Positions 10,777 to 18,082 of a stretch of DNA of 40,066 nucleotides are shown one piece after another. Below the pieces are notes generated by a model that did no database searches, was not told the origin of the DNA, and saw only the letters and a list, made by a program, of their open reading frames with translations. A program made the translations under genes and the position numbers. Within the stretch, counting starts at the first letter, position 1. Each line of letters opens with the position of its first letter. This DNA is from a virus, in the IMG/VR virus record IMGVR_UViG_3300034236_000017, positions 1-40,066 of that record, one strand, 5' to 3'.

Positions 10777-12108
10777 ATGAGCATGACCAGTTACCACGGC
10801 GGGCGAGTTGTGGTGTGGGGCGGCGACTGCCTCACCCTCATGGCCGCGATGGCGCCCGACAGTGTCGACTCGATCGTCACCGATCCCCCGTACGGCCTCG
10901 GCTTCATGGGCAAGAAGTGGGACGACCTGCCGCCCGGGAAGGAGTGGGCCGAGGCCTGCTTCCGAGTGCTGAAGCCGGGCGGGCATCTCCTCGCCTTCGG
11001 TGGCACCCGCACCTGGCACCGCCTTGCGGTTGCCGTCGAGGACGGCGGCTTCGAGATCCGCGACTCCCTCGCCTGGCTCTACGGGTCGGGCTTCCCGAAG
11101 TCGATGGACGTGTCCAAGGCGATCGACAAAGCGGCCGGAGTGACCCGCGAAGTCGTCGGCGTGACGTCGACCCATGATGGTCGACCGCGCAGCTTGGCGC
11201 CCCGCGAGACGGGCGTGCATGAAGGACGCCAGTCGCATGGCGGCGTTGGACTCGACATCACCGCCCCCGCCACCTCCGAGGCCGAGCGGTGGCAGGGCTG
11301 GGGCACGGCGCTGAAGCCTGCCTTCGAGCCCATCGTTGTCGGTCGCAAGCCCCTCGCCGAGAAGACCGTCGCCGCGAACGTGCTCGCGCACGGGACCGGG
11401 GCGCTGAACATCGACGCGACCAGGACGGCGACGACTGACAAGCTCGGAGGCGGCGCCGAGAAGATCACCACCGCAGGACAGAAGGGCGACGAGGGCTGGA
11501 CGAGGCCGTGGATGTCTGACGCCGAGGCACAGGAAGCGCACGCGGAGAGAGTCCGAGCCAACGTCGCCAAGGCCGAAGATCTCGGCCGTTGGCCGGCTAA
11601 CGTCATCCTCGACGAGTCCCAGGCTGCGGTCCTTGACCAGCAGGCGCCCAACACTGGCGGATCCGGCAAGGCCTCGGGCCCGTCCCTGCGAGGACAGACC
11701 GACGCCGGGGTGGCCTACGGGGCTCGCAACGGGCTCGACGGCGAGCCCGCCTTCTACGGGGACAGGGGTGGCGCGTCCCGGTTCTTCTACGTCGCCAAGG
11801 CTCCCAAGTCGGAGCGGCCGATCGTCGAGCTGGCTGACGGGGCGAAGCTGGCCCACCCCACCGTGAAGCCGGTCGCGATCATGCGCTGGCTGGTCAGGCT
11901 GGTGACGCCTCCCGGCGGGCTGGTGCTCGACACCTTCGCCGGCACCGGCACCACCGGAGAAGCCTGCGTCCTCGAGGGCTTCCAGTGCCTCCTGGCCGAA
12001 GACCCGGCCAAGGGCGAGCAGGACTATCTGCCGCTGATCGATCAGCGCATTACCCGGGCACTGCTCACCCTTCCCTCTGCCGACGACGACGAGAAGGCGA
12101 GCGCGTGA
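10777..12108 (+). CDS. Beta-class DNA amino-methyltransferase (m6A or m4C)
   Basis: 443 aa. The catalytic motif DPPYGLGF (from residue 36) comes before the AdoMet site LDTFAGTGTTGEA (about 383-395), the beta-class order. The long middle (about 110-330) would hold target recognition. DPPY favours N6-adenine methylation, but N4-cytosine cannot be excluded. No cognate restriction enzyme is present. With the cytosine enzyme at 6575, the phage carries two orphan methyltransferases in one replication block, consistent with anti-restriction. The start follows AGGACGAAG as a ribosome-binding site, and the stop overlaps the primase GTG by 4 nt. Confidence 0.92.
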   Translation: MSMTSYHGGRVVVWGGDCLTLMAAMAPDSVDSIVTDPPYGLGFMGKKWDDLPPGKEWAEACFRVLKPGGHLLAFGGTRTWHRLAVAVEDGGFEIRDSLAWLYGSGFPKSMDVSKAIDKAAGVTREVVGVTSTHDGRPRSLAPRETGVHEGRQSHGGVGLDITAPATSEAERWQGWGTALKPAFEPIVVGRKPLAEKTVAANVLAHGTGALNIDATRTATTDKLGGGAEKITTAGQKGDEGWTRPWMSDAEAQEAHAERVRANVAKAEDLGRWPANVILDESQAAVLDQQAPNTGGSGKASGPSLRGQTDAGVAYGARNGLDGEPAFYGDRGGASRFFYVAKAPKSERPIVELADGAKLAHPTVKPVAIMRWLVRLVTPPGGLVLDTFAGTGTTGEACVLEGFQCLLAEDPAKGEQDYLPLIDQRITRALLTLPSADDDEKASA

Positions 12109-14627
12109 CTCTCCTGCAAGCAGCCCTCGACCTCGCAGCCCATGGCTGCTCCGTCATCCCCGTCAACAACGACGGATCCAAGCGACCCCTCATCGCGTGG
12201 AAGCAGTTCCAGACCGAGGCGGCCGACGCGGCCACCATCAACGGCTGGTTCTCCACCAACGCGATCGAGGGCGTCGGCGTCATCACTGGCGCAGTCTCGG
12301 GCAACCTCGAGCTGCTCGAGGTGGAGGGCCGCGCGATCGACCTCGTGCCTCCGCTCGGCGCGCTGCTCACTGACTCAGGCATGGGCGAGCTCTGGGCCCG
12401 CATCTGCTCCGGCTGGCTCGTCCAGTCCCCCTCGGGCGGGCTGCACTTTCTCTACCGGATCGAGGGCGCGGTCGCTGGCAACACCAAGCTGGCCCGGCGG
12501 CCCAACCCCGACAATGACCAGCTGGTCGACGTGCTGATCGAGACCAGGGGCGAGGGCGGCTACCTCGTCACCGCTCCCTCCGGCGGCTCGGTCCACCCGA
12601 CCGGCAAGAGCTGGGTCGTTATCGCCGGCGGACCTGCCACCTGCCCAGTCCTGACCGTGGACGAGCGCGACGCCCTGCACCTCGCCGCCTCCACCTTCGA
12701 CGCCATGCCCGCCCGCGACGTCTACCCCGAGCCCTCGGCGCACAAGGCGACCTTCGACTCAGGTGCCGACGGGCTGCGCCCCGGCGACGACTACAACAAC
12801 CGGGCGAGCTGGGACGACCTGCTCACGCCCCTGGGCTGGCAGCGCATCAAGAAGATGGGCAACGGCTACGGGTGGGTTCGCCCCGGCAAGGACACCCGCG
12901 ACGGGATCTCAGCCACTACGGGCACCGCTCACGACGGCGTCGACCGGCTCTACGTCTTCAGCTCCTCGACCGAGTTCGAGACCGAGCGGCCTTACTCCAA
13001 GTTCGCGGCGTACGCCCTGCTCGAGCATCACGGGGACATGGCAGCGGCTGCCTCCGCACTGCGGAAGCAGGGGTACGGCACCGAACGGCCGGAGGCGAAG
13101 CTGACCCTCGTCGGCGGGCCTGAGCGACCCACGCCCGGAGCGCCGTACGCCGCAGCAGGCCAGCAGGCCCAAGCCGCAACCGACGGCGCCGCTGTGCTGC
13201 AGCTGCGGCCAGCACCCGAGAGCACCGTCTCCGACTCCGAGGACGCCCACGCGCAGCGGCTGATCGTGGCGTACGGCGACCTGATCCGCTACTGCCCCCA
13301 GCGCGAGAAGTGGCTGACCTGGTCGGGCACGCGGTGGGTCTGGCAGCCGAAGGGAGGTGGGCTGGTCCGTGAGTACGCCAAGAGGGTCGCTCGCGGGCTG
13401 ACCGAGAGCGAGGCCCAGCTGGCCCAGCGACGCAAGGCACTGTCGTCGGCAGGCATCTCGGGCTGCCTCAAGCAGGCCGAGACCGACGAGCGGATCCTCG
13501 TCGACATGGGGGCGCTCGACGCCGACGGGTGGACGCTCAACTCCCCCGCCGGGCCGATCGACCTGCGCACGGGCGAGCTCCTGGCGCCCGACCCGGCCGC
13601 GCTCTGCACCAAGTCGACGACCGTGGCGCCCAACCGCGAGGACGATGCAGCCGCCGAGCTCTGGGCGACCTTCCTCGCCGACACCTTCGGCGACGACATC
13701 GAGCTACGCGACTACGTGCAGCGCCTGGTCGGCGTGACCCTCATCGGCGAGGTCCGCGAGCAGCTGCTGGCCTTCCTGCACGGCCTCGGAGCCAACGGCA
13801 AGTCCACGCTCGCCGAGGCCCTCATGCACGCGCTGGGAGTCGGTGAGGCTGGCTACGCCATCGCGGCACCCTCGGAGATGCTGATGATCCGCAAGCACTC
13901 CGAGCACCCGGCCGAGCTCGCCCAACTCGCCGGCGCCCGCATGGTGGTCTGCTCCGAGCTGGACGACGGCCAGAAGTTCGCCGAGGCGCGGATCAAGCAG
14001 CTGACCGGCCGGGACAGCGTGAACGCGCGATTCCTCTACGGGAACCCCTTCACCTTCACCCCGACCCATACGCTCTGGCTGCTCGGCAACCATCGGCCCC
14101 AGGCGGCAACGGGTGGGCTGGCGTTCTGGCGCCGGGTGAAGCTGCTTGAGTTCGCCCACGTCGTGCCCGTCGAACATCGCGACCCGGCGCTGGGCGACAA
14201 GCTCAACGCCGCGGCCGGGACCATCCTGGCGTGGGCGATCGACGGCTGCGTCGACTATCTCGCTCGGGGCATCCGCGAGCCCCGAGCAGTCTCCGAGGCG
14301 GTGGCTGCGTACGCCGCTGACCAGGACACGGTCGGGCGCTTCGTCGAAGACATGTGCCACCGCGCCGACTCCACTCTGGTCAGGGTCAAGACGCGAGACC
14401 TGCGCAACGCCTACGAGTCCTGGTGTGGCGACGTGGGCGAGGCTGCCGTCTCTCCCAAGCGATTCGGCCAGGAGCTCCGAGAGCGCTTCAACGTCACCGA
14501 GGCCAAGTCCAACGGGCAGCGGTTCTACGCCCGGATCATGCTCACGGAGACCGAGGCGGAAGAGCCGGCGCCGGCCGCTCCGCCGGCCGCAGACGAGCCC
14601 CAGGCGACCTTGGGATTCGTCCGATGA
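12105..14627 (+). CDS. Bifunctional primase-polymerase / SF3 helicase
   Basis: 840 aa from GTG 12105. The N-terminal about 230 residues are a prim-pol domain (HGCSVIPVN, WFSTN, GVITG, then LELLEVEG with an ExE-like pair instead of the usual DxD/E, and SGGLHFLYR). The middle resembles the D5/P4 N-terminal helical region. The C-terminal half is a P4-type superfamily 3 helicase: Walker A GLGANGKST from residue 560, the Walker B-like segment VVCSELDDGQ, and the sensor LWLLGNHRP. It should initiate and drive phage replication. The iteron cluster begins 5 nt after its stop, a typical initiator-origin arrangement. The C-terminal WSWCGDV-like domain may bind DNA. Confidence 0.92.
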   Translation: MTLLQAALDLAAHGCSVIPVNNDGSKRPLIAWKQFQTEAADAATINGWFSTNAIEGVGVITGAVSGNLELLEVEGRAIDLVPPLGALLTDSGMGELWARICSGWLVQSPSGGLHFLYRIEGAVAGNTKLARRPNPDNDQLVDVLIETRGEGGYLVTAPSGGSVHPTGKSWVVIAGGPATCPVLTVDERDALHLAASTFDAMPARDVYPEPSAHKATFDSGADGLRPGDDYNNRASWDDLLTPLGWQRIKKMGNGYGWVRPGKDTRDGISATTGTAHDGVDRLYVFSSSTEFETERPYSKFAAYALLEHHGDMAAAASALRKQGYGTERPEAKLTLVGGPERPTPGAPYAAAGQQAQAATDGAAVLQLRPAPESTVSDSEDAHAQRLIVAYGDLIRYCPQREKWLTWSGTRWVWQPKGGGLVREYAKRVARGLTESEAQLAQRRKALSSAGISGCLKQAETDERILVDMGALDADGWTLNSPAGPIDLRTGELLAPDPAALCTKSTTVAPNREDDAAAELWATFLADTFGDDIELRDYVQRLVGVTLIGEVREQLLAFLHGLGANGKSTLAEALMHALGVGEAGYAIAAPSEMLMIRKHSEHPAELAQLAGARMVVCSELDDGQKFAEARIKQLTGRDSVNARFLYGNPFTFTPTHTLWLLGNHRPQAATGGLAFWRRVKLLEFAHVVPVEHRDPALGDKLNAAAGTILAWAIDGCVDYLARGIREPRAVSEAVAAYAADQDTVGRFVEDMCHRADSTLVRVKTRDLRNAYESWCGDVGEAAVSPKRFGQELRERFNVTEAKSNGQRFYARIMLTETEAEEPAPAAPPAADEPQATLGFVR

Positions 14628-14914
14628 GGCAGGGCGGGTTGCTCCGAAACCTCGCGCAAAACAGGGTCGGTTACTCCGAACTTCCAGCAGAAACGTCCAA
14701 AAAGGCAGTTATCCACAGGGTCGGATGCTCCGAAACCTCGGCCCAAAACCCTCTGACCTGCGCAAACGCAAAACAGGGCGGGGAGGGCGTGGTAATCCGA
14801 ACCTTTTCATATATACGTACCCCTACGCGGGCGCACACACATACCGTGCAGGTGGCCCAGGTTTCGGATCACCCCGCCCTACCCGCCCTGTCTGACCTGG
14901 GCGGTCGACGATGA
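14624..14914 (+). CDS. Possible 96-aa ORF across the iteron region (doubtful)
   Basis: An ATG overlaps the helicase stop by 4 nt, and its TGA overlaps the next gene's ATG by 4 nt, so the reading frame fits the operon exactly. The codon use, however, is unlike the neighbours (many third-position A and T, Arg AGG/CGA), and the sequence consists largely of the repeated TCCGAA motif. It gives repeats such as the Arg-Val-Gly-x-Ser-Glu pattern rather than a fold. It is more likely an origin that happens to be open, possibly translated only for coupling. Confidence 0.25.
   Translation: MRQGGLLRNLAQNRVGYSELPAETSKKAVIHRVGCSETSAQNPLTCANAKQGGEGVVIRTFSYIRTPTRAHTHTVQVAQVSDHPALPALSDLGGRR
14632..14879. other. 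Candidate replication origin: iterons and DnaA box
   Basis: Five related about 23-bp repeats with core TCCGAA: 14632-14654, 14664-14686, 14718-14740, 14785-14807 (all direct), and 14856-14879 (inverted). Consensus is about GGGYSGGTTRCTCCGAAACCTCG. A perfect DnaA box, TTATCCACA, lies at 14709-14717, and the 12-mer CGCAAAACAGGG occurs at 14655-14666 and 14767-14778. Between the last direct and the inverted iteron is the AT-rich TTTTCATATATACGTA (14804-14819), a possible unwinding element. Its position directly behind the primase-helicase supports an origin. Confidence 0.7.
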
Positions 14915-16977: not shown

Positions 16978-17096
16978 CCGACCACTTCCGTTGCAAGGTG
17001 TGCGAGGTCGAGCACGTCGTGCCCAGTCTGGCGCGTGACTGCGAGGCAAGGCATGAGGGTCTGCGCCCAGCCCGGTTGTCCAGCCCTGCAGGCTGA
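16974..17096 (+). CDS. C2H2-like zinc-finger mini-protein (40 aa)
   Basis: 40 aa from GTG 16974: FRCKVC, then RDCEARH after 12 residues, a C-x2-C...C-x3-H pattern. It overlaps the HNH gene by 44 nt in another frame; the C-terminal part after the finger may be unconstrained. Supported by the 4-nt coupling upstream and the intact zinc ligands. Confidence 0.45.
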   Translation: MTDHFRCKVCEVEHVVPSLARDCEARHEGLRPARLSSPAG

Positions 17097-17388
17097 GTCC
17101 CGTTGTCCAGCTCACCGACGTACACGTGAGCAGGCACGAGGCACGAGGCAGCAGCGTGGCTACGATGCCACCTACGATGCACGACGTAGGGCTGACGTGA
17201 AGGCCCTTGAGGCCGGCACTGTGCTCAGCTGCTGGCGATGCAGGGCCGCCGTACTGCCCCACGACTACTCGCTCGGCCACTGCGACGATGATCGTTCGGT
17301 CATCCATGGCCCCGAGCACCTGGCATGCAACCTCGCCAACACCCGCGGCCGCTGCCCGCACCCCTCGCATATATCACCAGACGCATAG
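17053..17388 (+). CDS. HNH endonuclease (packaging-associated)
   Basis: 111 aa. Zinc-binding pairs CAQPGC and CPAH at the N-terminus, and CWRC before the beta-beta-alpha-metal core, DYSLGHCDDD...HGPEHLACNLANTRGR, which carries the H, N and H positions. A stand-alone HNH gene directly before the small terminase is typical of cos-type phages of the HK97 kind, where the nuclease works with the terminase in cleavage or maturation. Start ATG 17053. A candidate cos region with a direct repeat begins inside its stop. Confidence 0.88.
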   Translation: MRVCAQPGCPALQAESRCPAHRRTREQARGTRQQRGYDATYDARRRADVKALEAGTVLSCWRCRAAVLPHDYSLGHCDDDRSVIHGPEHLACNLANTRGRCPHPSHISPDA

Positions 17389-17492
17389 GGGTGGCGGGGG
17401 ACCCCCAAGGGCCCACGCGAGGAGGACCGCGGGAGAGGTCTTTCCGGGGTCGAGCGGGTTCAGACTTCCCAGACATACCACCAGACGCATAG
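17371..17492. other. Candidate cos/terminase-binding region
   Basis: A 151-bp gap lies between HNH and small terminase. ATAYCACCAGACGCATAG occurs at 17371-17388 (over the HNH stop) and again at 17475-17492, with one mismatch. Between them lie the palindrome GGGGGACCCCC (17396-17406) and an adjacent GGGCCC. Repeats flanking a GC-rich palindrome upstream of the terminase suit a cos site with binding sequences. No cut position can be read. Confidence 0.5.
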
Positions 17493-17539
17493 CGCAAGGC
17501 TGTGCGTCACCGACGCGGCGCAAGGCCGTCGAGGGAGTG

Positions 17540-18082
17540 ATGACCATGCCCAGCGGCGGAGCTCGCAATCGATCCGGCCCCCAGAAGGACCCCAACTCGC
17601 TGCGCAGCGCGAAGGCTGGCGCCACGGCGACGATGCTCCCGGGCGCCGGCCACGACGGCACCGCCCCCGACTTCCCGCTGATGGGCTTCCGGGTCTACCG
17701 CTGGGAGTTCGAGGACAAGCGCCGCTTCCAGGTGCTCGACGTCGAGCAGACCGAAGCCTTCGCCGAGCGCGAGCGCGACCTGTGGGCCGAGGTCTGGACC
17801 TATCCGCAGGCCAAGGCGTGGGAGCGGGAGCCCTGGCGTTGGCAGCCGATCGCCATGTGGGTCCGTACCGCCGTCGTGTGCGAGTCCAGCGAGGCAACCG
17901 CCGCAGACAAGGGCGCGATCCACCGCTTCGCCGACCAGATCGGCCTGACGCCAGCTGGCCTCAAGGAGAACGGCTGGGTCATCGCCCACGACGTGGTGAA
18001 GGACCAGCGCGAGGCCAAGAGCTCGACCAAGAAGTCGAGCGCGCGAGACCGCCTGACGGTCCTCGATGGCAACGGAGGCTGA
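17540..18082 (+). CDS. Terminase small subunit
   Basis: 180 aa, ATG 17540 after GAGGGAG (ATG 17546 is possible). Typical small terminase: disordered N-terminus (PSGGARNRSGPQKDPNS), a helical middle about 60-140, and a Ser/Lys-rich tail. It should recognise cos and dock the large subunit. The reading frame overlaps the large-subunit ATG by 17 nt. Family assignment rests on length, composition (GPQKDPNSLRSAK start) and place. Confidence 0.85.
   Translation: MTMPSGGARNRSGPQKDPNSLRSAKAGATATMLPGAGHDGTAPDFPLMGFRVYRWEFEDKRRFQVLDVEQTEAFAERERDLWAEVWTYPQAKAWEREPWRWQPIAMWVRTAVVCESSEATAADKGAIHRFADQIGLTPAGLKENGWVIAHDVVKDQREAKSSTKKSSARDRLTVLDGNGG

Follow-up and report, generated by a model that had tools for sequence, protein, structure and literature searches.

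The window, by which we mean the whole stretch of DNA analysed, is a 40,066-bp virus record with the gene content of a temperate tailed phage. It encodes an integrase, an excisionase-like protein, a RusA-like resolvase, a Cas4-related family exonuclease, a primase-helicase, and an HNH-like protein. Structural and packaging genes are those for the major head protein, scaffold, protease, portal, and terminase large subunit. A tRNA search of the window gave no hit. The primase-helicase gene occupies 11985-14627 on the plus strand, and a set of repeats sits between its stop codon (14625-14627) and the next ATG at 14911. The protein matched Pfam Prim-Pol, D5_N, and DUF5906 and PHROG DNA primase families and scored 258.8 bits against the P4-family primase model TIGR01613 (cut-off, 108.7), identifying it as an SF3-type primase-helicase with a primase of the Prim-Pol type (PF09250). 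Pox_D5 matched 4 of 15 family members, with 22.4 bits against 21.4 for the window protein.

In the AF2 model of this protein (mean pLDDT 72, with 85-95 over residues 281-350 and low values in part of the ATPase), the predicted C-terminal half resembles the helicases of SaPI5 PriRep, poxvirus D5, and ASFV PrimPol. Comparison with the SaPI5 primase-helicase gave a Z score of 20.6 and an rmsd of 4.5 over 308 aligned residues. Model residues 283-355, encoded at 14331-14549 on the plus strand, resembled the DNA-binding domain of RFX (1dp7; Z 9.8, rmsd 1.8, 71 aligned), and we propose this C-terminal winged helix as the reader of the iterons. The model thus predicts a D5/SF3 initiator with a C-terminal winged helix, as expected for a SaPI/PICI-type origin.

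TCCGAA occurs on the plus strand at 14643, 14675, 14729, and 14796 and as an inverted copy at 14863. Five copies in 264 bp compare with 0.07 expected (P(≥5) = 1.6e-8), and the rest of the contig holds 11. Every letter named in the original prediction, namely the five TCCGAA (four direct, one inverted), TTATCCACA, and a repeated 12-mer, was found in place. The true repeat unit is the 18-mer AGGGYSKGDTRMTCCGAA, which starts with AGGG, ends with TCCGAA, and is present in four direct copies and one inverted copy. Iteron 1 (AGGGCGGGTTGCTCCGAA, 14631-14648) starts 3 nt past the primase-helicase stop codon, and iterons 2 (AGGGTCGGTTACTCCGAA, 14663-14680) and 3 (AGGGTCGGATGCTCCGAA, 14717-14734) follow on the same plus strand. 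The 12-mer CGCAAAACAGGG lies at 14655 and 14767; each copy overlaps the start of an iteron or half-site by its final four letters.

Iteron 4 and the inverted iteron are each accompanied, at 9 bp, by an additional AGGG half-site. The left central tandem pair (14775-14801, plus strand) consists of a half-site at 14775-14783 and iteron 4 at 14784-14801, with a 9-bp period, and the right pair (14863-14889, minus strand) consists of an iteron at 14863-14880 and a half-site at 14881-14889. The two pairs face each other as 29-bp inverted arms, 90% complementary, that enclose 61 nt. This inverted repeat scored 20, versus at most 10 among 20 shuffles, and the hairpin z score was -6.65, with values of -5.3 to -12.7 across six origins. 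The long hairpin may have a role as in pRN1, or it may be a mere by-product of mirrored binding sites. Successive iteron spacings in the window are 32, 54, 58, and 9, and a distance of 67 separates iteron 3, the last one upstream, from the second member of the central pair. GC skew in the window showed no sign change at the repeat site.

The upstream iterons are followed, ahead of the central pair, by a separate 18-mer, CTCTGACCTGCGCAAACG (14751-14768, plus strand), which is widespread in actinobacterial mobile elements; a second copy with two mismatches lies at 1914-1931. Its consensus, CTCTGACCTGCG[C/G]AAACG, was found in at least 119 IMG/VR stretches and in 58 of 296 class-mate genomes, and the reversed control gave no match. 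It occurs near the right ends of several actinophages and, in at least four Streptomyces/Kitasatospora plasmids, no more than about 1.5 kb from the record ends, which may not be physical ends. It also adjoins apparent tRNA genes (by eye) and other iteron sets, and its flanks are A-rich on the 5' side and pyrimidine on the 3' side (141 sites). Among the literature matches listed for its 10-base core, none looked related.

The centre between the arms (14802-14862, 61 nt) had been described as containing an AT-rich stretch. It is 43% AT, compared with 28% further downstream, and 14802-14822 is only mildly AT-rich, holding at most 13 A/T per 20 nt, a value matched by 56 twenty-nucleotide windows in the contig. 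Across relatives, AT-richness found no clear support as a shared central feature: AT content ranged from 0.27 to 0.46 in 18 loops, none of which reached 50%, and 11 were moderately richer than downstream DNA (by at least 0.06) and 7 were not. The window centre contains alternating purine-pyrimidine runs at 14808-14820 (13 nt) and 14831-14844, the latter being the sole strictly alternating run of at least 14 nt in the contig. The run was longer than in loop shuffles in 17 of the 18 loops (p ≤ 0.013; the exception, L183, gave p 0.077), and the best inverted repeat enclosed the longest alternating run in 22 of 27 loci. Within 400 nt past the gene, the longest run was unmatched by the other 400-nt windows tested in the same locus in 23 of 27 higher-scoring homologues, versus 3 of 26 distant ones; among those 23, L162 was scored on a different run, its true tract lying beyond 400 nt, and the 27 include near-duplicates. 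No long alternating run was found in the cluster K phages (8 and 9 nt), so not every origin carries the tract. The centre appears better described as an alternating purine-pyrimidine tract than as AT-rich.

The same arrangement lies directly 3' of the primase gene in L002 and L003, two viral contigs with primases 61-63% identical to that of the window (L002, the longest match, 63%). Further relatives, with primases 40-47% identical, mostly keep the layout with different repeat sequences. Their iterons include ATGACGC, ATGACAG, AGTGACAGC, AGTGCCCGC, AGTACCCCCT, AGTGACACA, AGCGACCGAT, and AGGCGGGGT; the tandem period is mostly 9 bp (range, 7-10 bp), and the repeat spacing is often about 67 bp. 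The layout begins about 300 nt further downstream in L159 and L162. The cluster K mycobacteriophages CrimD and MacnCheese, whose helicase part is about 40% identical, carry GGCACAGAT iterons at successive spacings of 32, 9, 10, 66, and 9; the spacing of 32 is common to these phages and the window, and the 66 of CrimD is measured up to the first member of its central pair.

These loci were collected with a profile of five primases, which yielded 17 viral and 5 genome loci (L156 and L172 duplicate L002 and L003). The same profile had matches in 29 of 394 class-mate genomes, and at 30 of 35 places the locus was available and the DNA 3' of the primase was read. The 27-locus set excludes L041 (no repeats found), L181 (the L173 locus again), and the rest of the distant homologues; it contains the near-duplicates L040/L161, L159/L162, and L166/L167. 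The gene end of L168 differs between analyses because one reading crosses a stop codon. In 24 of the 27 loci the best inverted repeat scored above every one of 20 shuffles, and in 21 it also bracketed the alternating tract. The iteron patterns used for the tandem periods were picked by eye, and a lag test on shared 6-mers served as a sequence-blind check. Lag 9 was found in 17 of 24 origins (shuffle mean 1.8, maximum 6), lag 67 in 10 (mean 1.5, maximum 5), and lag 87 in 11 (mean 1.3, maximum 5).

The clearest exception to the layout among full-length relatives is the Arthrobacter phage Shambre1 (L041; primase 43-45% identical), in which no iteron-like family was found in the 430 nt past the gene and no inverted repeat scoring at least 12 in the 10.5 kb examined. 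Alternating runs of 12-13 nt occur elsewhere in those 10.5 kb. No such region was seen by eye in the 380-420 nt read in the distant homologues L177, L185-L195, and L202-L206. Absence of the iterons from relatives with the same primase had been named as the observation that would count against an iteron-type origin beside the primase-helicase. Most relatives retain the layout 3' of the same gene, Shambre1 and several distant families being the exceptions, and the proposal is supported. At the level of sequence comparison, the features that hold are the placement past the initiator gene and the symmetric tandem iterons, whose spacing recurs and whose letters change.

We investigated which part of the protein varies with the iterons. 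The L169 and L170 primases come from contigs that share an IMG genome id. Over 12 of 14 alignment blocks they are 92% identical (84-98% each); the last two blocks agree at 45/60 and 26/50 positions, so that the C-terminal domains differ, and the iterons are unrelated. The two look as if incompatible replicons had diverged. L166/L167 and L169/L180 are pairs with a common iteron type, and their last full block agrees at 54/56 and 41/53 positions, respectively. Across 19 origins, iteron similarity correlated with C-terminal similarity when the helicase core was partialled out (0.37, permutation p 2e-4) and with helicase core similarity when the C-terminus was partialled out (0.24, p 0.012); L164, L175, L178, L180, and L182, in which no bracketing inverted repeat was found, and the near-duplicates L161, L159, and L167 had been dropped from this set. 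Since the helicase core also correlates with the iterons, shared descent is not fully separated. There are also counter-cases in which the iteron type is the same but the C-terminus has diverged: window/L002 (core 0.76, C-terminus 0.44), L163/L173 (0.77 and 0.48), and L169/L158, whose C-terminal similarity of 0.45 is below that of L169/L170 (0.56). Iteron sequence and the initiator C-terminal domain appear to be statistically linked, which is short of proof.

The DnaA-box-like TTATCCACA (14709-14717, plus strand), whose last A is shared with iteron 3, was described as a perfect DnaA box, and helicase loading by host DnaA was one of two suggestions drawn from the region. The box is present as a single copy in 40 kb on both strands, and strict TTRTCCACA boxes occur in 3 of 27 origins (the window, L003, which has two, and L164), versus 0.095 expected under a Markov model (0/1000 simulations reach 3). 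The box abuts the iteron alike in the window and L003, although in both the ACAGGG on the 5' side of the iteron already makes up part of the box. A DnaA-dependent iteron origin, in which the host helicase would be loaded by host DnaA bound to TTATCCACA, as happens at many iteron plasmids, draws on the uniqueness of the box, its excess over chance, and this shared abutment, but we consider it unlikely: the other 24 origins, L002 among them, have no strict box in the 450 nt examined, so that the conserved boxes of DnaA-dependent iteron plasmid origins are not seen here, and the phage encodes its own SF3-type helicase. DnaA loading lacks support as a general mechanism; an accessory role for DnaA in this phage is possible. 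The suggestion that the phage is also kept as an episome was not supported. An integrated prophage is favoured by the genes for a tyrosine integrase and an excisionase-like protein on the contig; repA and parABS were not found among the window proteins scanned, a subset of the ORFs. Satellites such as SaPIs also replicate via iterons, and iterons alone are therefore no sign of a plasmid prophage.

The repeats might instead be TerS-binding sites within a cos or other packaging site, as several actinophages carry the 18-mer of 14751-14768 near their right genome end too (in Sbash, for example, at a distance of about 60 nt). This reading is very improbable and was dropped, because the HNH-like gene (17035-17388) and the TerS-like gene (about 17540-18082) lie elsewhere in the window, where a cos would be expected, and the repeats, which do not adjoin these genes, accompany the primase gene from relative to relative; Constance, for instance, has its HNH gene at the genome end, about 3.3 kb away from the repeats linked to its primase. 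The protein at 17540-18079 (MTMPSGGARNRSGPQ...) is matched by a PHROG named minor tail protein (phrog_226); we read it as TerS because its gene precedes that of the large terminase and on account of its N-terminal motif. The gap between the HNH-like and TerS-like genes (17389-17542), together with the end of the HNH gene, contains a repeated CACCAGACGCATAG (by eye) and is a candidate cos or TerS site. An operator or transcription-termination region ending the primase gene would fit the intergenic position between two same-strand genes and the strong hairpin (z -6.65). There is, however, no T-run after the hairpin, and a terminator would need less than these mirrored tandem pairs, whose periods are 7-10 bp and whose spacing of about 67 bp recurs over unrelated iterons, which leaves this explanation with hardly any likelihood.

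The origin reading was compared with known systems. PICI origins lie 3' of the initiator gene (PMC6092414, PMC7581432), and the iterons that SaPI Rep and Cch2 recognise, via the C-terminal domain, lie downstream of the respective gene (PMC7581432). The SaPI/PICI pri-rep-ori, such as that of SaPI5 PriRep, resembles the window in the origin immediately 3' of the primase-initiator gene, the two iteron sets flanking a central region, and the D5/SF3 helicase with a C-terminal DNA-binding domain (PMC6092414, PMC7581432). In contrast to these satellites, which depend on a helper phage, the window origin belongs to a phage that has terminase, portal, and capsid genes of its own (including protease, scaffold, and major head protein), and the window and its relatives have inverted tandem pairs, a spacing of about 67 bp, and an alternating tract at the centre. 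The pRN1 replicon (ORF904) and phage BIP-1 likewise combine Prim-Pol, SF3, and winged-helix domains with a stem-loop directly downstream of the gene, the stem sequence varying and its structure being kept (PMC4234260). The pRN1 origin is without iterons, and no specific binding was found (PMC4234260), whereas the stem arms of the window are themselves tandem iterons. The P4 alpha protein also unites initiator, helicase, and primase in one protein and binds origin repeats through a winged helix, but its primase is of the Toprim type, in contrast to the Prim-Pol of the window (PMC4234260). Extrachromosomal mycobacterial prophages, whose origins are likewise actinophage replication origins, carry parABS in place of the integration cassette, whereas the window encodes an integrase (PMC7157519).

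The conserved layout with changing iterons and the contrast between L169 and L170 together support an initiator-read origin of the SaPI/PICI, P4, and pRN1 kind. We consider it highly probable that 14631-14889 is the replication origin of a temperate actinobacterial phage, read by the primase-helicase encoded immediately upstream, with the C-terminal winged helix on the iterons, opposed hexamers, and an opening centre. From the arrangement of the locus and its known counterparts, we infer origin function, iteron binding, melting in the centre, and double-hexamer loading. The C-terminal winged helix would bind the 18-bp iterons, and the two inverted tandem pairs would seat two opposed SF3 hexamers flanking the central tract. 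The tract would then open, the helicases would unwind outward, and the Prim-Pol domain would lay primers for the host replisome. The self-loading step proposed here is modelled on SaPI Rep and Cch2 (PMC7581432) and pRN1 (PMC4234260). More tentatively, the unwinding element of these GC-rich phages may be a 12-29 nt alternating purine-pyrimidine tract of CG, CA, and TA steps, prone to Z-DNA, between mirrored iteron pairs, and not an AT-rich stretch, with the geometry kept and initiator-iteron specificity switching via the C-terminal domain; this is somewhat doubtful. A search of open-licence papers on alternating tracts or Z-DNA at origins found nothing relevant. No description of a similar origin in actinophages was found in the open-licence literature, which is weak evidence of novelty; in the available portion of the cluster K paper, "origin of" was absent and "primase" appeared once.

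The alternating tract prompts one to ask how an origin rich in GC is opened, and naturally differing initiator-iteron pairs such as L169/L170 permit a direct test of DNA reading by D5-family initiators. With this layout as a rule, replication origins could be searched for in many actinobacterial phages, among them sequenced phages of M. smegmatis and Arthrobacter (CrimD, MacnCheese, Constance), and an origin organisation described as unique to PICIs would thereby be extended to full-size phages.
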